Below, piece after piece: positions 2,554 through 21,223 of a stretch of 21,223 bases of DNA (the stretch's first letter is position 1; each line of letters opens with the position of its first letter). Origin of the DNA: a virus; IMG/VR virus record IMGVR_UViG_3300006802_000718, positions 1 to 21,223 of that record; one strand, given 5' to 3'. The notes beneath the pieces are model-generated. The model saw only the letters and a list, made by a program, of their open reading frames with translations, searched no databases and was not told the DNA's origin. The translations under genes and the position numbers were made by a program.

Positions 2554-2767
2554 TTACAGATACACCTTAGCATTTTCATACACCCAAGCATTTCCAAACA
2601 CCTTAGCATTTTCAAACACCTTAGCATTCCCAAACACCAAAGCATTTCCAAACATCTGAGCATTCCCATCTTGGGAGATGGTTTCCTTCTATCTCAATAA
2701 GAGATAGAATTCTATACAGAGTAGTTTCTCCGTGTAGCTTGATCTCTTCAGTGAGTTTATATTTCAT
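2554..2767 (-). pseudogene. Decayed second copy of the hexapeptide-repeat protein
   Basis: An ATG at 2767 behind AAAGGAG opens a frame starting MKYKLTEEIKLHG and continuing TTLYRI, matching the cap of the 323-residue repeat protein. That frame ends after 48 codons at 2621. From about 2670 the next frame instead encodes six hexapeptides (AQMFGN, ALVFGN, AKVFEN, AKVFGN, AWVYEN, then AKVY) ending in TAA at 2554-2556. Cap and repeats are therefore out of frame, and most of the cap's second half and most repeats are missing. This is best read as a deletion plus frameshift remnant. The 48-residue product could still be made because the ribosome site is intact. The start overlaps the end of the primase-like gene by 11 nt. 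Confidence 0.75.
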
Positions 2768-3500
2768 AAAAATTCTCCTTTATAAAATTAAGTTCTGCAC
2801 AAGTGTGAAGTTTTGGATCACATTTACTAAGTATTGTTGAACATTTTATACCATAATGACTTATTTGTCTAGCTTTTTTTATCGAATATTCGTGCATATT
2901 TTCATCAAGAAATATGATATACTCTTTAAATTGCAACTTAAGCAATTGCAAAGGTTTAAAATTTACACCAAATAGGGGCATAACATACACTCCCAACTTC
3001 GATAATTTAATAGCTGATATGATATCTTCCACCAAAAAAAGCGCACTTGCTTTGTTGTAAGCATGACCGACCTTCCCATTAAAATATATTATATTTTTTT
3101 CTTTAATGTTCCCTTTTGTTAACCATTTGATTTTTTCATCTTTTTTAATGCTACGGGCCTGGTATCCAATTAATTCGCTACCCATCCAAAAGGGAAATAT
3201 AAGTCTACCCATGCCATCACTCCAAAGCACACCATTAAATAGCAAATCATTTTTTGACAAATCAAAGGATGCTATCCAATCGATGATTTTAGCTGGATAA
3301 ACTGTATTGCAATCGTCGGGCAGTGTAATCTTGGGGATAGATTGTGCTTCGGTTTTAGCAACAAAACTATTCTTGCATTGATAATAGCCACAACGAAAGC
3401 AATATTTTGATCCATCGGGATAAATTGCAAGATTATCACCTGCCCGGTCGTTGCCGTTTTTGTGGCAAGCCGGGCATCGTGTGAAGAGTATTCGTGCCAA
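2757..3500 (-). CDS. Zinc-finger TOPRIM primase-like protein, copy 2 (no helicase)
   Basis: This 247-residue protein resembles the primase half of T7 gp4. Cys9, Cys12, Cys34 and Cys37 form a zinc ribbon, a middle segment carries LIFPFW...IGYQARS, and the C-terminal half looks like a TOPRIM domain with FLVEDIISAIKLS (Glu158, residues 155-167) and IIFLDEN (Asp199). The usual DxD pair appears here as D-E-N, so one metal-binding acid may be missing. There is no Walker A motif and no helicase domain. The start is TTG at 3500: no in-frame ATG precedes the zinc finger, and AAAGAG lies just upstream, 2 nt after the previous stop. Copy 1 lies at 1-459. A priming role is inferred from family resemblance. 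Confidence 0.8.
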   Translation of the reverse strand: MARILFTRCPACHKNGNDRAGDNLAIYPDGSKYCFRCGYYQCKNSFVAKTEAQSIPKITLPDDCNTVYPAKIIDWIASFDLSKNDLLFNGVLWSDGMGRLIFPFWMGSELIGYQARSIKKDEKIKWLTKGNIKEKNIIYFNGKVGHAYNKASALFLVEDIISAIKLSKLGVYVMPLFGVNFKPLQLLKLQFKEYIIFLDENMHEYSIKKARQISHYGIKCSTILSKCDPKLHTCAELNFIKENFYEI

Positions 3501-5891: not shown

Positions 5892-6398
5892 ATGGATAAA
5901 TTTAAAGATGTTCTTGACAGATATAGAACACTATCAATATTTTATGAATATCATAATCCTGAGTATGAATATTATTATTCTATCGGGAACAAAGATATTA
6001 ATGTAGAAGGTAAGAATATTCCATCCTTGTATAAATTATACATGAGCTATGTTCATGTTCCAGGACAAGAATATGATTTTGCTGTAGAACATTTGGGTGG
6101 ATGGAAGCATTGGAAGAAGCTCTGTGATAATGCTAATTTACGCAAGATTATAGCAGAATGGCATAATGAAATGGAAGTGAAGATACGTGCAAGTGCTATA
6201 AAGAATATGCTTTCTCTTTCTACAGAAAATAATGCTGCTGGTGCCAATGCAGCAAAGTGGCTTGCTGAAAAGGGATATGAACTAAAAAGAGGACGTCCAA
6301 GTAAAGCAGAACGAGAAGGCTATCTAAAAAAAGAAGAACAAATAAATTCTGCTATTGATGAAGATTTAGAACGTGTAGGACTAATATTAGTTAAATAA
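5892..6398 (+). CDS. Terminase small subunit-like protein
   Basis: The 168-residue protein starts at an ATG behind AAGGATTAT. It reads SLYKLYMSYVHVPGQEYDFAVEHLGGWKHWKKL, then helical IIAEWHNEMEVKIRASAIKNMLSLS, NAAKWLAEKGYEL and KRGRPSKAER. The last motif, an AT-hook-like GRP in a basic run, and the AAKWLAEKGY helix before it are typical of small terminase or DNA-packaging adaptor proteins of short-tailed phages, which recognise phage DNA and hand it to the large subunit. Being the first gene of the late operon fits. The large subunit is not adjacent but about 2.5 kb downstream. Assignment is by motif and position only. Confidence 0.55.
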   Translation: MDKFKDVLDRYRTLSIFYEYHNPEYEYYYSIGNKDINVEGKNIPSLYKLYMSYVHVPGQEYDFAVEHLGGWKHWKKLCDNANLRKIIAEWHNEMEVKIRASAIKNMLSLSTENNAAGANAAKWLAEKGYELKRGRPSKAEREGYLKKEEQINSAIDEDLERVGLILVK

Positions 6399-6700
6399 TG
6401 GAAAAAAATCAGAAAGTTTTCACAGAGAATGTTGTAAACATTCAAAATAGAAATAGGGAAACAGATTTGTCTGTTAGTGCTGTAGCTTCCCAAACAGCAG
6501 CACTAGCTGCTGGTATATACCATGTCACTAGCACTGTTGATTGCTATATTAAAGTGTCTACTACAGCTAATGATGTTACAACAAATACAGGATATTTATT
6601 GTTAGCCTACAACACTGTTCCTTTTAGAATTCCGGATAGACATAAAATTGGAGCTATCTCTGCTGTAAGTGGAACTATCTATATACATCAGGTGTATTAG
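6398..6700 (+). CDS. Small beta-rich putative virion protein (100 aa)
   Basis: It overlaps the previous gene as TAATG. After a polar N terminus the protein alternates small and hydrophobic residues (AALAAGIYHVTSTVDCYIKVS...GYLLLAYNTVPFRIPDRHKIGAISAVSGTIYIHQVY), as expected of a compact beta-sandwich. Proteins with such a GIYHV..T.DCYI.......GY.L.....V.F..P pattern occur as small structural or capsid-associated proteins in phages. No enzyme motif is visible. A virion role is inferred from composition and operon context. Confidence 0.5.
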   Translation: MEKNQKVFTENVVNIQNRNRETDLSVSAVASQTAALAAGIYHVTSTVDCYIKVSTTANDVTTNTGYLLLAYNTVPFRIPDRHKIGAISAVSGTIYIHQVY

Positions 6701-7440
6701 TGGCTATTCAAACAAGACAATCTCCTTTTATTATTCCAGAAGCTACGGATACTACCGATGCTGGTATAAATGCAGAAAGAAGGGGGTATATAACTCCAGC
6801 AGCTACATTTATAAATAGTACACCCACAGATGCAGGTGGTGGGGAAATATTATTAACTTCAGCAGGAGTACACGGACTAACAGCAGATAATGCTGTTGGA
6901 AGTGCTTTATATATTTCTTCAGGTACAAATTGGACTACAGGCTTCTATCCAATAACAGATATTGCTGTTGACACCACTGGAACCACTATTAAAATTAGTG
7001 GTACTTTTGTAGGTGGAATGGGGAGTCCTACTATTGCTTTAGCAGGCACAGAAGTAACATTTAGAACTATAGCAATTCCTCCTATAGGCCCAAATGGTTT
7101 AATAGAGATTAAACCAAGTTTTAGATATAATAATAGTGCTAATACTAAAAAAGTGGTAGTTAGATTTAATGGAAATGCTATATATCAACCATCAGTTACA
7201 ACTACTTGGACAGTAACTCCTGCATCTGTAATAGTACAAAATAGAAATGCTACAAACTCACAAGCCACGCATCATAATTTAACAACCTTAAATGGAACTG
7301 GTTGTGGCGCAGTGAATGCTCTAGCTGTAGAAACATCAGTGGATACCTCTGTTGCCACCACCATCACTCTAGGAGGACAATCCAACACTGCCAATGATTG
7401 GGTACAAATTGAGGCATATTATATCTATGTTTATAAATAA
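6700..7440 (+). CDS. Beta-rich putative virion or fibre protein (246 aa)
   Basis: The start is GTG at 6700, sharing its G with the TAG stop of the previous gene. The protein is rich in Thr, Ser, Ala, Gly and Asn with few charges, typical of extracellular beta-structured phage proteins. Recognisable stretches are EILLTSAGVHGLTADNAVGSALYI, RTIAIPPIGPNGLIEIKP, VVVRFNGNAIYQP and VQIEAYYIYVYK. The C-terminal half resembles a jelly-roll-like domain. No catalytic motif is seen. It might be a head fibre, decoration or receptor-binding subunit. Its place ahead of the lysis genes, far from the other tail genes, is unusual. Confidence 0.5.
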   Translation: MAIQTRQSPFIIPEATDTTDAGINAERRGYITPAATFINSTPTDAGGGEILLTSAGVHGLTADNAVGSALYISSGTNWTTGFYPITDIAVDTTGTTIKISGTFVGGMGSPTIALAGTEVTFRTIAIPPIGPNGLIEIKPSFRYNNSANTKKVVVRFNGNAIYQPSVTTTWTVTPASVIVQNRNATNSQATHHNLTTLNGTGCGAVNALAVETSVDTSVATTITLGGQSNTANDWVQIEAYYIYVYK

Positions 7441-7762
7441 TCTTTCTTATGCAGAAGCTCTAGCATTACCAGATCCAAAACATATTTGGATGGCTGGAGA
7501 TAAAGTATATGTAGACACAAATCCACATATAGAAATACCTGAAAGTATTTCTAATTATCAAGCAAGAATTGCATTTTTAAAAATGGGTATTTTACCTAGT
7601 ATAGAAAATACTATTGCTGCTGTTGGGGGAGAATTAAAAATTAGATGGGATTTTGCTGCTATTATAAATAGAAATCATCCTGATATAGCTAAAGTACAAG
7701 CGTTGTTAGGTTGGACAGACAAACAATGTGATGAATTTTTTATAGAAGCTGCTAAACATTAA
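7427..7762 (+). CDS. Small phage protein of the tail/fibre-associated type (111 aa)
   Basis: An upstream ATG at 7394 would lengthen the overlap with the previous gene to 47 nt. The ATG at 7427 leaves 14 nt and has GAGG about 12 nt upstream, so I prefer it. After KHIWMAGDKVYVD comes IPESISNYQARIAFLKMGILPSIENTIAAV, then IRWDFAAIINRNHPDIAKVQALLGWTDKQCDEFFIEAA. The order QARIAL..GLL..VE..I, I.WE.A..I.R..P.I, LG.T..Q.D..F..AA is familiar from small helical proteins encoded beside fibre genes in many phages, of unproven function. Chaperone or virion roles are both possible. Confidence 0.55.
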   Translation: MFINNLSYAEALALPDPKHIWMAGDKVYVDTNPHIEIPESISNYQARIAFLKMGILPSIENTIAAVGGELKIRWDFAAIINRNHPDIAKVQALLGWTDKQCDEFFIEAAKH

Positions 7763-8019
7763 TGCCTTTTCAGAAAAATAGAAAAAGAGACTACAAACGA
7801 GAACTTGCTTGGGAAAAAGCAAATGGAAATACTCGAGTCAAAGATAGAGCATTAAGAAATAGTGCAAGAAAGAAAATGAAACTTAAAGTGGGTGATTCAA
7901 GGGAAGTGGATCATAAAACACCATTAGTTGCTGGTGGAACAAATGATAAAAAAAATTTAAGAATAGTTTCAGCTAAAACTAATGCTAGAAAAGAAGCAAA
8001 TAGAAAAAAAGCGAAGTAG
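7762..8019 (+). CDS. Small HNH-type nuclease domain protein
   Basis: The 85-residue, very basic protein starts in a TAATG overlap. After a Lys/Arg-rich helix it has REVDHKTPLVAGGTNDKKNLRIVSAKTNARK (residues about 47-77). VDHK.PL..GG...D..NL is the core of small phage HNH proteins: the DH pair supplies the catalytic His and metal ligand, and the Asn in KKNL is the N of HNH. Flanking zinc-binding cysteines are absent, as in several compact members. HNH proteins near terminase genes can take part in genome packaging in other phages, but an autonomous homing role cannot be excluded. The end overlaps the endolysin gene by 38 nt. Confidence 0.65.
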   Translation: MPFQKNRKRDYKRELAWEKANGNTRVKDRALRNSARKKMKLKVGDSREVDHKTPLVAGGTNDKKNLRIVSAKTNARKEANRKKAK

Positions 8020-8464
8020 TATTGGGATAATCACTGTTAGTTTAGTAGGTGTTTTAGCTATTTCTCAATATGAAGGATTTCGAGAAGAAGCATATTTAGA
8101 TATTGTTGGAAAACCGACAATTGGTTATGGAACTACCCAAGATGTTAAACTTGGTAACACTATAACTAAAGAAGAAGCACAGGAAGTAATGCAACGAGAA
8201 CTTTCTGTTGTTTATGGAAAAGCTTTAACATCCTGTGTTAAAGTGCCCTTATACCAATATGAGTATGACGCCTATATTTCCTTAGCTTATAATATAGGAA
8301 CTAGCAATTTTTGTAAAAGTACATTAGTAAAAAAACTTAATACTAGGGACTACCCCGCTGCTTGTAAAGAAATATTAAGATGGGATTTTGCTAAAGGTAA
8401 GAAAATTAAAGGTTTGACAAAACGTAGAGAACAAGAATTTAAAATGTGTATAGGTGGAAAATGA
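7982..8464 (+). CDS. Endolysin, GH24 lysozyme with signal-anchor-like N terminus
   Basis: The 160-residue protein carries the T4-lysozyme catalytic triad with exact spacing: Glu31 in YEGFREEAYLD, Asp40, and Thr46 in GKPTIGYGTT (E-8-D-5-T). Later LYQYEYDAYISLAYNIG and the C-terminal GLTKRREQE are typical of the lambdoid P21/P22 lysozyme branch. Residues 14-27 (IGIITVSLVGVLAI) form a weakly hydrophobic, Gly-containing segment after a basic start, as in signal-anchor-release endolysins, which are exported by the host Sec system and released when the membrane depolarises. It cleaves peptidoglycan. The start lies inside the HNH gene with a weak ribosome site. The holin follows immediately. Confidence 0.9.
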   Translation: MLEKKQIEKKRSSIGIITVSLVGVLAISQYEGFREEAYLDIVGKPTIGYGTTQDVKLGNTITKEEAQEVMQRELSVVYGKALTSCVKVPLYQYEYDAYISLAYNIGTSNFCKSTLVKKLNTRDYPAACKEILRWDFAKGKKIKGLTKRREQEFKMCIGGK

Positions 8465-8727
8465 AACAAAAAATTTTAAATATACTACCCGAAGTTTTTC
8501 AAAAAGGCAAAGTAGTAGTAAATCCCGAATCATGGAAAAGGGGGCAAGTAACTACTAATGTATTAGCTTCCTTTTTAGCCACTATGGTTAGTTTCGCATC
8601 AATATTTGGATATGACATTCCTGTTACACAGGAACAACTTGTGGAATTATCTAGTTGGTTTTTAGGGGGAGTTGGTGTTTACAATACCATTGTTACTATT
8701 GTTTCAACAGATAAGATAGGAATATAA
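8461..8727 (+). CDS. Holin
   Basis: I start at the ATG at 8461, which overlaps the endolysin stop as ATGA and follows AGGTGG, rather than at 8446. The 88-residue product has two likely membrane segments, about 32-50 (TNVLASFLATMVSFASIFG) and 62-82 (ELSSWFLGGVGVYNTIVTIV), joined by a short YDIPVTQEQ loop, and ends STDKIGI. The order NPESWKRGQ, FGYD.PVT.EQ, TTDKVG(L) is familiar from a phage holin family. It would permeabilise the inner membrane, and with a signal-anchor endolysin a small-hole (pinholin-like) holin would suffice. Function is inferred from topology, size and neighbour. Confidence 0.75.
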   Translation: MKQKILNILPEVFQKGKVVVNPESWKRGQVTTNVLASFLATMVSFASIFGYDIPVTQEQLVELSSWFLGGVGVYNTIVTIVSTDKIGI

Positions 8728-15604: not shown

Positions 15605-16381
15605 ATGGCTAGAATGACTTTGTTAGAGATGGTAACAGACATTTTATCTGATATGGATAGTGATCCTGTTACTACTTATACTGAAACAGTTGAAAGTAAA
15701 CAAATAGCACAGATTATTAAAACATGCTATTTTAATATAGTAGATAGTAGAGAATGGCCTCATTTTATGAAAACCTTTACTATAACAGAGTCATCTGTTG
15801 CAACACCTACCCATATGACATTAGCAACAACAGTTAAAAGTTTAAAATATGTTAAGTATAATACACGAACTTCAGGCGGAAGTTATGATACCTATAATTT
15901 GGTTCGTTTTTTAGAACCACAAAGATTTATGGATATATTAGATGCTAGAACAAGTGGAGCTAGCATCACTGTTATTACAGATGCAAATAATATAAAATAT
16001 AAGATATTAACAAATATAGCACCTACATATTACACTACATTTGATGAACAAACTATTATCTTTGATAGTTATGATAGTGGAATAGACACCTATTTAAGAA
16101 CAACAAAAACACAATGCTATGGTATGGTATATCCGTCTGTTACTCTAACAGATGGGGTTTATTTTGATCTTCCTACAAATATGTATAGTTTACTACTTGC
16201 TGAAAGTAAAGCAACAGCTTTCCAAGTTTTAAAACAAGTTAAAAATCCACTAGCTGAATTCTTTGTTACTACTCAAAGAGCTAAATTCCAAGATCAAGAT
16301 TGGAAAGTACGTAAAAATTTTAAAAGTAAAGATTTTAATATATTATTTACACAACCAAGTAATGAGAATGTAAATGGCTAG
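15605..16381 (+). CDS. Head-tail adaptor (T7 gp11-like), paralog 1 of 3
   Basis: This 258-residue protein begins MARMTLLEMVTDILSDMDSDPV, with a helix IAQIIKTCYFNIVDSREWPH. The pattern of an N-terminal helix pair ending in R-x-W matches the T7 gp11 (tail tubular protein A) adaptor family. ATPTHMTL, PTYYTTFDEQTIIFDS, KTQCYG and YFDLP follow and are shared with the next two genes. The adaptor forms a 12-subunit ring between portal and nozzle. Position before the nozzle gene fits. Its last 8 bases (ATGGCTAG) are the start of the next paralog. Confidence 0.7.
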   Translation: MARMTLLEMVTDILSDMDSDPVTTYTETVESKQIAQIIKTCYFNIVDSREWPHFMKTFTITESSVATPTHMTLATTVKSLKYVKYNTRTSGGSYDTYNLVRFLEPQRFMDILDARTSGASITVITDANNIKYKILTNIAPTYYTTFDEQTIIFDSYDSGIDTYLRTTKTQCYGMVYPSVTLTDGVYFDLPTNMYSLLLAESKATAFQVLKQVKNPLAEFFVTTQRAKFQDQDWKVRKNFKSKDFNILFTQPSNENVNG

Positions 16382-17141
16382 AATGACCTTACTAGAAATG
16401 GTTAGAAATATTCACTTAGACTTAACTGAAGGTGAGTATATTTTTACTATAAATCAAAATATGTTATCTACACATATTACAGAAATTATTCGTACTAGCT
16501 ATTTTGATATTATTGATAGTCGTGAGTGGCCACATTTATTAAAATCGTTTCAACTTACAGAAACATCAGCCAGCACTCCTACTCACATGACGTTACCTAC
16601 AACAAAAACAAATTTACACTATGTAAAATATAATACTAAAACATCAGGAGGGGCAGCTAATCAATTTACATTAATTAAGTATTTACCTCCACAAAGATTT
16701 ATGAATTTGGTAGATGCTCGAGATAGTACACTTGGTACTGTAACAAGTATTACTGATTCATCCGGAATTCTAATTAATATTACTAATAACGCAGCACCGA
16801 CATACTATACATCATTTGATGAACAGACAATCATTTTTGATAGTTATATTGTTGCTTTAGAATCCTATTTAGTTACAACAAAGACGCAATGTTATGGGAT
16901 GATATATCCAACATTTACTGAGAGTGATACATTCTATTTTGATTTACCTCCAGAAATGTTTAATTTATTACTTCATGAATCTAAGTCAAAAGCCTTTTTG
17001 ACTCTAAAGGGTGTTCCTAATATTAAATCTGATCTTATAGTTGAAACTATACTATCTAAACTTGATACAGATAGTTGGAAAATCAGAAAGAACAAGAATT
17101 ATCAAAGTAGGCGTACTAGAATGGATAATAATAATGGCTAG
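16374..17141 (+). CDS. Head-tail adaptor (T7 gp11-like), paralog 2 of 3
   Basis: The 255-residue protein shares with its neighbours the opening MARMTLLEM, IIDSREWPH, STPTHMTL, PTYYTSFDEQTIIFDS, KTQCYGMIYP and YFDLP. It starts inside the previous gene with an 8-bp overlap ATGGCTAG and ends with the identical 8-bp overlap into the third copy, so all three copies share the same boundaries. Similarity runs from end to end, weakest around residues 15-30 and at the C terminus. It may be a distinct subunit of a mixed adaptor ring or a redundant copy. Confidence 0.7.
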   Translation: MARMTLLEMVRNIHLDLTEGEYIFTINQNMLSTHITEIIRTSYFDIIDSREWPHLLKSFQLTETSASTPTHMTLPTTKTNLHYVKYNTKTSGGAANQFTLIKYLPPQRFMNLVDARDSTLGTVTSITDSSGILINITNNAAPTYYTSFDEQTIIFDSYIVALESYLVTTKTQCYGMIYPTFTESDTFYFDLPPEMFNLLLHESKSKAFLTLKGVPNIKSDLIVETILSKLDTDSWKIRKNKNYQSRRTRMDNNNG

Positions 17142-17892
17142 AATGACTCTTTTAGAAATGACTAAGGATATAATGTATGAGTTAGATCCTAGTCACCCTG
17201 TATATACTATTTATCAAACAATAGAAAGTGAAAAAATAGTAAATATAATCATATCTACTTATTATAATCTAATTGATGGTAAGGATTGGCCTAATTTATA
17301 TAAACCTTTTCAACTAACACAAAGTAGTGCTAGTACTCCCACCCACATGACTATTAGTAATAGTGTATTGGATTTTCAATATGTTAAATACAATTGTAGA
17401 AGTAGTACAGATACTAAGGATAAATTTGTAGAAATAAAATTTCTACTCCCAAAAGATTTTATGAAGCAACTTGATTCTAGAGATAGTAGTGCATCTAATA
17501 TAGATGTAATTACGGATGCTTCTGGAATATATCTTAATATTCTTAATGATAGAGAACCTACATATTATACATCATTTGATGAAAAAACAATTGTTTTTGA
17601 CTCCTTTGATAGTGATGTAGAAACATATTTAAAAACTATTAAAACTCAATGTTATGGGAAAGTATATCCTTCTGTTACTATAGATGATAGTACTTATTTA
17701 GATTTGCCCATTGAAGCCTTTTCCTTATTATTAAATGATGCTAAATCTCAAGTGTATTTAACAATATTGAATACTCCAAACGTTAAAGCAGAACAAAATG
17801 CTGTTACTCAAAGAAGGAGAATGAGCCAAGAAGCTTGGAAAATACGAAATGGAATTTCTTACCCTGATTATGGACGAAAAGGTAAAAAATAA
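17134..17892 (+). CDS. Head-tail adaptor (T7 gp11-like), paralog 3 of 3
   Basis: An in-frame ATG at 17041 exists, but the ATG at 17134 reproduces the MARMTLLEM start of the other two copies and the same ATGGCTAG overlap, so it is chosen (252 residues). Family landmarks are LIDGKDWPN (KDW in place of REW), STPTHMT, PTYYTSFDEKTIVFDS, KTQCYGKVYP and YLDLP. It is the most diverged of the three. The end overlaps the following mini-gene as TAATG. The role is as for the other copies; which copy contacts the nozzle cannot be told. Confidence 0.68.
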   Translation: MARMTLLEMTKDIMYELDPSHPVYTIYQTIESEKIVNIIISTYYNLIDGKDWPNLYKPFQLTQSSASTPTHMTISNSVLDFQYVKYNCRSSTDTKDKFVEIKFLLPKDFMKQLDSRDSSASNIDVITDASGIYLNILNDREPTYYTSFDEKTIVFDSFDSDVETYLKTIKTQCYGKVYPSVTIDDSTYLDLPIEAFSLLLNDAKSQVYLTILNTPNVKAEQNAVTQRRRMSQEAWKIRNGISYPDYGRKGKK

Positions 17893-17995
17893 TGCCCTTA
17901 AAGAAAGGAAAATCAAAGAAAGTAATTATCCACAAGAACAAGCAATAGCTATTGCTATAAATAAAGCAGGAAAACAAAGGAAGAAAAAGAAATAA
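17892..17995 (+). pseudogene. Frame-broken mini-gene of a common podovirus small-protein type
   Basis: From the ATG at 17892 the frame gives MPLKKGKSKKVIIHKNKQ and stops after 18 codons. In the frame one base back (-1), downstream sequence reads NYPQEQAIAIAINKAGKQRKKKK up to the TAA at 17993-17995. Small podovirus proteins with MPLKKG.S....I at the start and P..QAVAIA..KAG....K at the end are familiar, so the two halves look like one gene disrupted by a deletion or frameshift. No obvious slippery heptamer is present. The downstream gene starts in the TAATG of the second frame, so translation in that frame would still be useful for coupling. Confidence 0.55.
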
Positions 17996-18234
17996 TGAAA
18001 ACTTTCATAACACCTAAAGGAAAAGAAATAGAACTTTATAATGAAGGCTTTTTAGTTAAAGCTAAATTTAAAAATGGTGGGGAACTTCCAGAAAGACTTC
18101 AAGGTGGCTGGACAGATGTTGCTAAGGCAGAAGAAGCAATTAAATTATATTTGAATGATAAAGAACCATTACATATTCAAGTTAAAGATGAAAATGGAAT
18201 TTACCAAAAAGTAAAAAATCCAAATAAAAAATAA
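17995..18234 (+). CDS. Small phage protein of unknown function (79 aa)
   Basis: It starts in a TAATG overlap and ends in a TAATG overlap with the nozzle gene. The protein opens MKTFITPKGKEIELYNEGFLVKAKF and continues KNGGELPERLQGGWTDVAKAEEAIKLYL, then a basic tail. The GGELPE.LQG.WTD...A..AI..YL phrase looks like a short conserved domain seen in phage small proteins, but I cannot name it. Function unknown. Confidence 0.65.
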   Translation: MKTFITPKGKEIELYNEGFLVKAKFKNGGELPERLQGGWTDVAKAEEAIKLYLNDKEPLHIQVKDENGIYQKVKNPNKK

Positions 18235-20885
18235 TGGCTATTAGTAAAGTAAATCAACCTATAGCAAGATTTGATAAAGGTATTATAACGGAAGTTAGTC
18301 CGTTAAATTACCCTGAAAATGCTTCTTTAGATGAAATAAATTTTAAACTTCACAAAGATGGTACAAGGGATAGAAGGCTTGGTCTTGATCTTGAAGAAGG
18401 ATATGTTTATGTTGATACTGGGTTAAGTAATAATGTTATCCCAACGGCAAGAGTTTCATCTTATAGATGGGTAGTACCTAATGGACATTTTGAGTATGAA
18501 ATTGGTGTTATTCAAATAGGTAATGCTCTCTGGTTTATTGATTTATTAACAGAATCCCCTTCAGCTAATGTTCTAAATGGTGGAGTTCCTTTAACTGCTG
18601 TTGGAATTAGAAATGATTATGTAATGGAATTTGCAACAATTAATAATTATTTAGTAGGTATTTCCAGGGGATTAGAAAGTCCCTACTTATTTAGTTATGA
18701 CCCAGATACAGATATAATTAGTTATGAAACTGCCCGCATTACTATCCGTGATTTATATGGAGTTGATGATGGTTTAGCTGTCAGTGCTAGACCTACAACA
18801 CTATCAAATGAACATAAATATAATTTAAGAAATCAAGGTTGGAATAGTTTCATTGAAACTACTTGTGGTGTTGGTGTAGATGCTCTTGACTGTACTTATA
18901 ACACCTTTGGTTTATATCCTAGTAATTCTGATCAATGGGTTATTGGGCGTATAGCAGATTTAACTAATGCTGATGTAGATAAGTATGATCCTAATCTAGC
19001 TAAAAGAAATATAGTTGATTATGGACAAGTACCAAAGGGACATTTCATCATTGATCTATTTAATAGGGGATCTTCTCGCACATCTGAATCTGGAATTACC
19101 CTTCCAAATGACAGGGAGCTTACTTATGTATCAACTATAGCTACTTTTGCAGGTAGAGTTTGGTATAGTGGTATTTATGGTGATATTCAGGGGGGTGATA
19201 ATCGGAGTTTACATTTAAGTAATGCTGTTCTATATTCACAAGTTTTTACTGATAAAATAAACTTGGTAAAATGCTATCAAGAAGCAGATCCTACTTCCTG
19301 GAAATTTAATAAAGTTGTTGATACTGATGGAGGTGTAATTCATATCCCAGGTTGTAGTTTAATATTTAAAATAAAACAAATAAAACAAAGTTTGTTTGTT
19401 TTTGCTTTAAATGGGATATGGGAAATTAGTGGGGATGCACAGGGATTTAGAGCTACTTCATTTCAGGTTAAAAAAATATGTAGTGTTGGAGTTTATAGTA
19501 AAGATTCTGTAGAAGAAGTAGATGGTATTATCTATTTTTGGGGTAGTAGTGGTATTTATGCTGTCATTCCAAATGATCAGGGTACTTATGATGTACGTAA
19601 TTTAACATTAAATTCTATACAAAGAATCTATAATGAAATTCCAGATTCTTCTAAGAATAATGCTAGAGTGCTATATGATGAGCATACAAATAGTTTAAGA
19701 TGGCTTTATTATTCTCCGTATGATAAAGAAGTAGGGGTACCCATAGAAACAGGAACCTTACCTAAATTAGGGGAAACAACTAATATAAGTGTGGATTGTT
19801 ATTATTTAACAAGTGTTGTTCTAAATGCTACTACTTATGTATTTATATATTCTGATGTGGCAACAGGTGATCTTAAGGGAGTTGTTTGTACTTTAGATGC
19901 AATAGATAGTACTGTAGTAACAATGGGGCCAGTGAATACCTTAAATAGTTCTGGAAATTGGACTACATGCTTTAGTATAGAGCGCTATAGTGATTCAGAA
20001 GTTATTATTATTGGTAAACCCACAGTGTCAGGACAAGACATATGGGCAAGTTTAGCTTCTGTTTCTGGTACTACTATCACTGCGGGAGTATTTAATTTAA
20101 TAGCAACTGAAATTTTCTTAAATGATACATATAATCATACCCCCTATATACGTTATATAGAACCTACTAAGTATTTAGTTGGTTTTCCTAGACAAGCAAG
20201 TCCAAAGTATTTAGGTTTTGCTGTACTCACTGTTACAGATAGTAGCACTATGAGTCTGGGAACGATTAGTTATAGAACTACTGGTAGTTTTGTGTCAGAA
20301 GGCTTGGGAATTATTTCTACTGGTACCGCTAATCAATTTTATGCAAGTCACTATTCTGGTACATATAAAGGTTTATTGCCTGTAACAGTGTCAGGTAACA
20401 CTGTATCTATTGGTGTTAGAATAGAATCTACACTATTACTTTCTACATCAAATAGTGATAATTATAGAGCATTTTCTAAATTGAATACAAATGAATATAT
20501 ATTAAGTAGACAAGTAGGTGGATCCTCTCCACAATTAGCTGTATATAATATAGATACAAATACAACTACAAATTATACGTATCCTACTACTGAACAAAGT
20601 GCAGATGGAACAGTTATTGCTACAACAAATGATAGATTTGCTTTTCTTTGGCGTGATTGGAATAATGGGAATTTAAAATTAGACTATTTTCAATTTGCTA
20701 ATAGTACTATTACTAGATATGAATCTTCAGTAGTTGATACTGATGCTACTTCATGGACAAGTTATGCAGTAGTAGATATACCTAGGGTAGGTTTTACTTC
20801 TACAAAATTTCCAGCAGTCTACCATGCTGATTATGGTGGAACTTCTAAAATAAGTACTTTTGTTTTTGATATGGGTTCTATTTAA
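18234..20885 (+). CDS. Tail nozzle (T7 gp12-like) N-terminal part joined to a beta-rich domain
   Basis: The 883-residue protein starts ISKVNQPIARFDKGIITEVSPLNYPENASLDEINFKLHKDGTRDRRLGLDL, matching the start of T7 gp12 (a K-G-G-I...P...YP.....E..N......G...R.G pattern). The first ~500 residues keep nozzle-like stretches (LTYVSTIATFAGRVWYSGI, SLFVFALNGIWEISG, VEEVDGIIYFWGSSGIYAV, ARVLYDEHTNSLRWLYYSPYD). From about residue 505 the sequence changes to Ser/Thr/Gly-rich strands (ATTYVFIYSDVATGDLKGVVC, TTCFSIERYSDSEVIIIGK) resembling beta-propeller-like repeats of fibre proteins, up to the stop. The nozzle forms the hexameric tail tip. The rest of the nozzle seems to follow in the next gene. Confidence 0.7.
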   Translation: MAISKVNQPIARFDKGIITEVSPLNYPENASLDEINFKLHKDGTRDRRLGLDLEEGYVYVDTGLSNNVIPTARVSSYRWVVPNGHFEYEIGVIQIGNALWFIDLLTESPSANVLNGGVPLTAVGIRNDYVMEFATINNYLVGISRGLESPYLFSYDPDTDIISYETARITIRDLYGVDDGLAVSARPTTLSNEHKYNLRNQGWNSFIETTCGVGVDALDCTYNTFGLYPSNSDQWVIGRIADLTNADVDKYDPNLAKRNIVDYGQVPKGHFIIDLFNRGSSRTSESGITLPNDRELTYVSTIATFAGRVWYSGIYGDIQGGDNRSLHLSNAVLYSQVFTDKINLVKCYQEADPTSWKFNKVVDTDGGVIHIPGCSLIFKIKQIKQSLFVFALNGIWEISGDAQGFRATSFQVKKICSVGVYSKDSVEEVDGIIYFWGSSGIYAVIPNDQGTYDVRNLTLNSIQRIYNEIPDSSKNNARVLYDEHTNSLRWLYYSPYDKEVGVPIETGTLPKLGETTNISVDCYYLTSVVLNATTYVFIYSDVATGDLKGVVCTLDAIDSTVVTMGPVNTLNSSGNWTTCFSIERYSDSEVIIIGKPTVSGQDIWASLASVSGTTITAGVFNLIATEIFLNDTYNHTPYIRYIEPTKYLVGFPRQASPKYLGFAVLTVTDSSTMSLGTISYRTTGSFVSEGLGIISTGTANQFYASHYSGTYKGLLPVTVSGNTVSIGVRIESTLLLSTSNSDNYRAFSKLNTNEYILSRQVGGSSPQLAVYNIDTNTTTNYTYPTTEQSADGTVIATTNDRFAFLWRDWNNGNLKLDYFQFANSTITRYESSVVDTDATSWTSYAVVDIPRVGFTSTKFPAVYHADYGGTSKISTFVFDMGSI

Positions 20886-20886
20886 A

Positions 20887-21223
20887 ATGGCTAATAATGA
20901 AACCTATCAATATGATAGTTTTAATAGAGAACTCATCTTGGATTTAACTCTAGGTGCTTTCACTATATATACTATTACAAGTGATGAAACTAATTTCGAT
21001 TTTCCTTTAGTAAGAGAATATGTAAAACTCCCTTCTTTTTACAAACAAGCTGTAGCTGTTCAAATTTATTCTGGAAATGATTTAATTGTCGATGGATTGG
21101 GAGATCCGGTAACTTTTAATCAGTATATAGTAAAATCACGTACAACCGATGAAAGAAGAGAAAATTTTAAATTTGTAACTACTGGTGGTACAGTGTTTAG
21201 TTTATCTGAATATAGGGACTATA
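20887..21223 (+). CDS. Apparent continuation of the tail nozzle (cut by right edge)
   Basis: An ATG 1 nt after the previous stop opens a frame that stays open to the right edge (112 codons). It begins MANNETYQYDSFNRELILDLTLGAFTIYTI and continues LVREYVKLPSFYKQAVAVQIYSGNDLIVDG. In single-chain nozzle proteins, a strand pair of the type Y.YD..L.LDL.LGAF.. follows soon after the (V/L)YDE...R(W/L).Y segment that sits at about residue 480-495 of the preceding protein. The order suggests that one ancestral nozzle gene was split here. No strong ribosome site is seen, so expression may depend on re-initiation. Confidence 0.6.
   Translation, partial: MANNETYQYDSFNRELILDLTLGAFTIYTITSDETNFDFPLVREYVKLPSFYKQAVAVQIYSGNDLIVDGLGDPVTFNQYIVKSRTTDERRENFKFVTTGGTVFSLSEYRDY

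Follow-up and report, generated by a model that had tools for sequence, protein, structure and literature searches.

We found that two adjacent open reading frames (ORFs) in a viral genome fragment most likely encode, to judge from their homology, a two-chain tail nozzle (gp12 / tubeB-like) of a Zobellviridae-related podovirus, with a domain of predicted beta-propeller fold lodged at the break between the chains. The nozzle is the gate that holds the DNA in short-tailed phages, and it is usually a conserved, one-piece protein. We put the probability at about 0.7 for the full reading, in which the two chains, made by coupled translation, would co-fold into a nozzle whose six outward propellers would contact the host. 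The analyzed window, meaning the whole stretch of DNA studied, is a 21,223-base IMG/VR fragment with a podovirus structural operon. A second IMG/VR record, IMGVR_UViG_3300025889_000607 (locus L001), represents nearly the same phage and is 99.97% identical. The window features relevant to the nozzle are these:

17134..17892 (+), adaptor (tail tubular protein A), the copy nearest the nozzle; 47-48% identical to the first copy, which matches phrog_7592
17995..18234 (+), 79-aa gene immediately before the nozzle gene, sharing one base with its start; phrog_9082, E 8e-7
18234..20885 (+), ORF1, 883 aa (P0001), the N-terminal two thirds of the nozzle plus the predicted propeller insert; same ORF in L001
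18234..19706 (+), nozzle N part, residues 1-491, from alignment to undivided nozzles
19707..20882 (+), insert, ~392 aa, C-terminal in chain 1, predicted beta-propeller of ~7 blades (AlphaFold2, Foldseek, HMM)
20883..20889 (+), junction TAA-A-ATG, with the ORF1 stop and ORF2 start 1 nt apart (read from the sequence)
20887..21223 (+), ORF2, the nozzle C-terminal third, first 112 codons in the window; PHROG_8094 match

Two reading frames with homology to one nozzle

PHROG_8094 is the Zobellviridae tail nozzle ("tail appendage," tubeB) family, and its profile has 769 positions. In a profile search, residues 1-494 of ORF1 match positions 1-516 (E 7e-119), while residues 10-261 of ORF2 match positions 522-768 (E 1e-47). 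A preliminary description of this DNA had the nozzle-like sequence ending near residue 500. The end is real, but it falls at residue ~491-494; the homology in P0001 stops at residue 494, directly after ARVLYDEHTNSLRWLYYSPYD. The same description held that the next gene continues the nozzle, and this was borne out, as the opening residues of ORF2, MANNETYQYDSFNRELILDLTLGAF, line up with the stretch that comes next in undivided nozzles, for example SETNYINNYTKELNLDLALQAF. In ctOsX528, GX1-k141_326647, and MEP402, the nozzle is a single chain of 738-749 aa that is uninterrupted across the break site, and the N part in the window is 42-51% identical to these undivided nozzles. Two findings would have spoken against a divided nozzle. 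One, a following gene that is an unrelated fiber, was looked for in relatives and did not occur; the other, a C-terminal ORF lacking nozzle homology, is countered by the strong match above. ORF2 runs off the end of the window and is complete in L001 (8654-9442; P0006, 262 aa). A single continuous chain is a usual, though not a defining, trait of nozzles, and in its place ten contigs have a stop followed by a restart.

The nozzle genes follow the adaptor and precede the internal virion protein genes, which is the neighborhood of undivided Zobellviridae nozzles as well (adaptor, small gene, nozzle, internal virion proteins); small genes also precede the undivided nozzles at the position of the 79-aa gene. 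The window has three tandem, overlapping adaptor paralogues (15605-16381, 16374-17141, and 17134-17892, + strand) that are 47-54% identical, the first of them matching phrog_7592. Contig G006 has two copies, and a single copy is present in the other relatives checked, whether split or undivided. The adaptor of single-copy relatives mostly finds its best match in the 17134..17892 copy, which marks that copy as the canonical one among relatives. Since the long tail of PhicrAss001 is built of paralogous ring proteins (PMC10172136), stacked or mixed adaptor rings are possible in the window phage. In the gap between the third adaptor and the 79-aa gene, at window 17924-17928, L001 has ~34 extra bases (between its 5661 and 5691).

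Several other genes of the window deserve mention. Between the terminase genes (6398-8727, + strand) there are six small ORFs only, the largest of 246 aa, and this inter-terminase region is the shortest among the genomes compared (2.5 kb). A short-repeat protein (SENALVSGYARV-like; 951-1922, - strand) has 323 aa in the window; its counterpart in G001, a near-identical contig, has 299 aa, so that the two differ in repeat number. Two similar zinc-finger, primase-like ORFs (1-459 and 2757-3500, - strand; CP.C....DR.GDNLA.YPDG...CF.CGY) lie a few kb apart and are probably the result of a duplication.

A split shared by ten contigs

Profile-guided scans of viral contigs located nozzle homologues on clearly more than 80 contigs, and the ~230 loci in the first round of testing contained overlapping copies of these same contigs. 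At the break site, a stretch of 1.14-1.37 kb separates the N part from the C part in nine contigs, including one of the window's own type; almost every other nozzle locus runs on uninterrupted. A later scan brought in a tenth split contig, L304, and L264, which has a partial C-chain match at its contig end. The split layout with an insert at the same site is thus found in ten contigs, all uncultured, down to ~45% identity, and ORF2 is conserved in every one of them. No contig with the insert in a single unbroken ORF was found among the nozzle loci scanned. A scan of a genome collection returned four MAG contigs, which are distant and uninformative about the host.

In a tree of the N and C parts, built by a quick method and with L304 left out, the nine split nozzles make up one side of a 100%-supported branch, versus 38 undivided nozzles on the other. 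Outside the close group of L093, L094, and L097, the N part is 45-68% identical across split lineages. Identities of the N and C parts correlate over pairs (r 0.88 without the close trio), which argues that both genes descend together. Within the close group of L093, L094, L097, and L304, dN/dS is 0.06-0.21 for the N and C parts versus 0.18-0.47 for the insert. All three segments are therefore under purifying selection, and the insert changes fastest. Taken with the coupling suggested by the junction (see below), this conservation and selection have a natural reading, namely, that the two chains would reassemble into a nozzle.

A predicted beta-propeller at the break

The nozzle gene had been described at the outset as interrupted by a beta-rich, Ser/Thr-rich segment resembling a propeller, and our analysis agrees on both counts, the second at the level of predicted fold. 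Serine and threonine make up 25% of the insert versus 14-16% of its flanks. An AlphaFold2 model of the insert from a nine-row alignment (pLDDT 73.6, pTM 0.76) has 30 strands of at least 3 residues; it is moderate in confidence, with 28 residues above pLDDT 90. The named top Foldseek matches in the PDB are almost all propeller proteins (7esk, TM 0.64; 5muk, TM 0.59), and the insert is predicted to be a beta-propeller of about seven blades.

By sequence, the insert (~390 residues) matched no Pfam or PHROG family and no PDB sequence. No homologues appeared in phage genomes (tblastn) or, by pattern, in viral contigs, and an insert HMM run over all fetched loci found nothing beyond the split nozzles. 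The inserts are 22-30% (~25%) identical across lineages, compared with 39-68% for the flanks (close trio aside). Leave-one-out HMMs recovered every insert (E 1e-25 to 9e-3), with decoys scoring at most 5.2 bits. These profiles place the inserts in one family, with one likely origin followed by rapid change. Two other candidates for the origin of the insert were rejected. An intein, intron, or homing element as the interrupter was set aside because none of the nine inserts has an intein or endonuclease domain match in Pfam or PHROG. Nor does the insert look like a copy of the nozzle's own propeller, to which it has no profile similarity (hhalign probability 0.2%).

What might such a propeller do? 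Recognition of the host is plausible, and we infer it from the fast divergence of the inserts, the shorter fiber module of the split genomes, and the existence of propeller receptor-binding proteins. The fiber region between TerS and TerL has a median length of 4.5 kb in split genomes (n=6) versus 7.1 kb in undivided ones (n=16; p 0.0024), and since all split genomes are one clade, this shortening counts as one event. The largest gene in the region is not smaller in split genomes (p 0.49). A shorter fiber region is what would be expected if adhesin work had partially shifted to the nozzle.

The fold alone does not decide the function, because the Foldseek matches of the insert comprise receptor binders as well as glycan-active enzymes, including the glycan lyase 7esk, the glycoside hydrolase BT3686 (TM 0.59), and sialidases. 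With lyase, glycosidase, and sialidase propellers among the matches, an enzymatic or docking role also fits, and the same two-chain nozzle could carry a glycan-degrading enzyme, a fiber dock, or a structural collar in place of a receptor binder. There is a precedent for docking in SU10, where a loop extended from the edge of a propeller blade docks the short tail fiber (PMC9509320), and the fiber region of the split genomes still contains genes. However, conserved residues that would suggest an active site are absent from the nine-insert alignment, which has only two invariant columns, both proline. The inserts have also diverged in a way that suits a recognition surface better than a docking site for a conserved partner. 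We keep an enzyme, dock, or collar as a tentative alternative that deserves consideration, with host recognition as the preferred role of the propeller.

The insertion site and a model of assembly

The evidence here is sequence and monomer prediction, and the fold around the site was modeled on an undivided relative, L166 (39 sequences, pLDDT 77.4). The top 24 Foldseek matches of this model are all phage tail or nozzle entries, including those of cyanophage A4 (9k09), Pa223, VP1, Carin 1, SU10, T7, and P22, and the central beta-propeller of the nozzle fold is present in this model of the undivided homologue. The insertion point corresponds to an unstructured loop of L166 (492-507) between strands 486-491 and 508-513, held in a four-stranded unit (477-523) that precedes the C-terminal part. 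The loop is predicted to join two strands in the nozzle propeller's last full blade. The cyanophage A4 nozzle (9k09_U), the only structure that covers the site, aligns over this stretch, to its residue 665. A profile alignment with T7 gp12 gave nothing reliable, so the site was not mapped residue by residue on T7.

In T7, the chain past the propeller continues to the platform and the fiber dock, and a different insertion, in blade 3, makes up the tip (PMC6702177). Considering the insertion in a blade loop together with the T7 and SU10 layouts, it seems probable that the extra propeller projects from the flank of the nozzle and not from the tip. The preliminary description suggested that the insert might have placed a host-recognition domain on the tail tip; that placement is not supported, as the modeled site is a loop in the last full blade, near the C-terminal part, and not the tip domain.

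The model that we favor begins in an ancestor of the clade, where a beta-propeller domain would have entered the loop between strands of the last blade of the nozzle propeller. The reading frame would have been closed after the inserted domain and reopened at the next ATG. ORF1 would encode the N part, ending C-terminally in the extra propeller, and ORF2, begun by coupled stop-start translation, would supply the final strands of the last blade together with the C-terminal platform part. Because chain 2 would provide the remaining strands of the interrupted blade plus the platform, the two chains may co-fold into the equivalent of one protomer of the relatives. Six protomers would build the nozzle, and six extra propellers would project from its side. 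The rapid divergence of the propellers suggests contact with the host surface; they may bind structures there, probably glycans, and may assume part of the adhesin work of the fiber genes. We infer the coupling of translation, the co-assembly, the copy number, the exposure of the propellers, and the ligand.

The chain break could even be part of the mechanism. In that case, an outer, receptor-bound propeller would pull open the blade closed by the second chain's strands and free the DNA gate, so that receptor binding and gate opening would be one mechanical step. We consider this extension of the model improbable.

In another reading, the N chain would by itself suffice as a short nozzle like P22 gp10, and the C chain would have taken up a different role. 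P22 gp10 has ~471 aa, near the 491 residues of the N part, and the undivided nozzle model matches it (8u10, TMt 0.61). However, the C chain is conserved with the C part of nozzles over its whole length, it keeps pace with the N part, and the remaining strands of the interrupted blade would come from it; in T7, moreover, the platform requires both termini (PMC6702177). A self-sufficient N chain seems highly improbable to us, and a nozzle built from both chains is the reading that we carry forward.

The stop-start junction

ORF1 ends with the TAA at 20883-20885, and ORF2 starts with the ATG at 20887, in the +1 frame. In the split contigs, the ORF2 ATG lies at -3, 0, +2, or +3 nt from the ORF1 stop (-3 in L304), the frame of ORF2 relative to ORF1 varies among contigs between +1 and +2, and the sequence around the junction shows no conservation. 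Read from these sequences, coupled re-initiation at the stop-start junction would be the natural mechanism of translation.

Programmed ribosomal frameshifting, which would fuse both ORFs into one long chain in some products, could draw on the +1 frame of the window, which is open across 20854-20882, ahead of the ORF1 stop. However, such frameshifting would call for a conserved frame relation and a slip site, and every junction has instead a start codon at the stop. The variation in frame relation among relatives argues that frameshifting is not the mechanism, and we give it very little credence. Sequencing error, assembly error, or decay, whereby the two ORFs, which in the window lie in different frames with a single base between them, would really be one ORF or a broken pseudogene, is already refuted: a blastn comparison of L001 with the last 3.3 kb of the window has one mismatch and no indel, which excludes the missed frameshift that the preliminary description had flagged for checking, ten contigs share the layout with varying frame relations, and dN/dS is well below 1 in both ORFs.

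Comparison with other nozzles and propellers

The undivided Zobellviridae nozzles, such as those of Methylophilales phage MEP402, ctOsX528, Pseudomonas phage PA11, and Roseobacter phage SIO1, are homologous to the window nozzle over the full length, N and C parts alike. They differ in being one ORF (~740-750 aa in close relatives) without a propeller at the site. Split nozzles were known before in the Zobellviridae. In cultured phages with Melvirus nozzles (Pseudoalteromonas phages HP1 and RIO-1, and also Vibrio phages 1.293.O and 172P1), the nozzle likewise occupies two genes, but the split is at profile position ~280/327 versus ~516/522 in the window, which is accordingly not of the Melvirus type. 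The N chain of Melvirus nozzles has no fused insert, and separate genes lie between the two parts in HP1 and RIO-1; the depositors of the RIO-1 record themselves equate gp44 with the N portion of PA11 gp38 and gp40 with its C portion. Vibrio phage VpV262 (ORFN/ORFO/ORFP) is like the window in having an N chain with an added C-terminal region and a C part in a later small gene. It differs in the site (~642/657 of the profile), in the added ~220 residues, which are of other sequence, and in the 359-aa gene between the parts. The breaks of the window clade, the Melvirus type, and VpV262 therefore represent three different split sites in one family. New here are the other site, the predicted propeller cargo, and the strict stop-start adjacency; our literature search, thin on subscription papers, found no published description of a propeller-carrying split nozzle. 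An undivided nozzle of 901 aa in Vibrio phage PS32B-12 (L235:3001-5706) has ~150 extra residues near profile position 190.

Farther afield, T7 gp12 and SU10 gp17 share the seven-bladed propeller nozzle fold with the undivided homologue (Foldseek), and their extras, the T7 tip domain and the SU10 fiber-dock loop, likewise grow from blade loops (PMC9509320, PMC6702177). Unlike the window nozzle, both are single chains without a second propeller. The phi11/80alpha receptor-binding protein offers a parallel for the insert, as it is a five-bladed beta-propeller on a phage tail that is suggested to bind surface glycans (PMC7048315). The insert shares the beta-propeller fold by prediction, and searches of Pfam, PHROG, and the PDB turned up no known propeller family and no solved structure that resembles it in sequence. 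Unlike the insert, the phi11/80alpha protein is a separate trimeric protein of a siphophage baseplate, outside any nozzle. Within a related family member, Lentibacter phage ICBM2, gp49 (515 aa) matches the insert in fold (BFVD A0A3G2YRE6, equated with gp49 by protein length; TM 0.68). In contrast to the insert, gp49 is a free-standing gene in the TerS-TerL fiber region and is missed by the insert HMM. It lies at L356:34452-35999 (- strand) and is annotated as hypothetical.

Implications

The assembly of a nozzle from two chains is directly testable. The Zobellviridae have broken the nozzle gene at three sites, and in the window clade a fast-evolving, predicted propeller would sit in a blade of the nozzle itself. 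Inserts in nozzles may be a new place for receptor-binding domains that annotation misses. If the propeller does recognize the host, this clade would illustrate a possible route by which podoviruses move host recognition from fibers to the nozzle.
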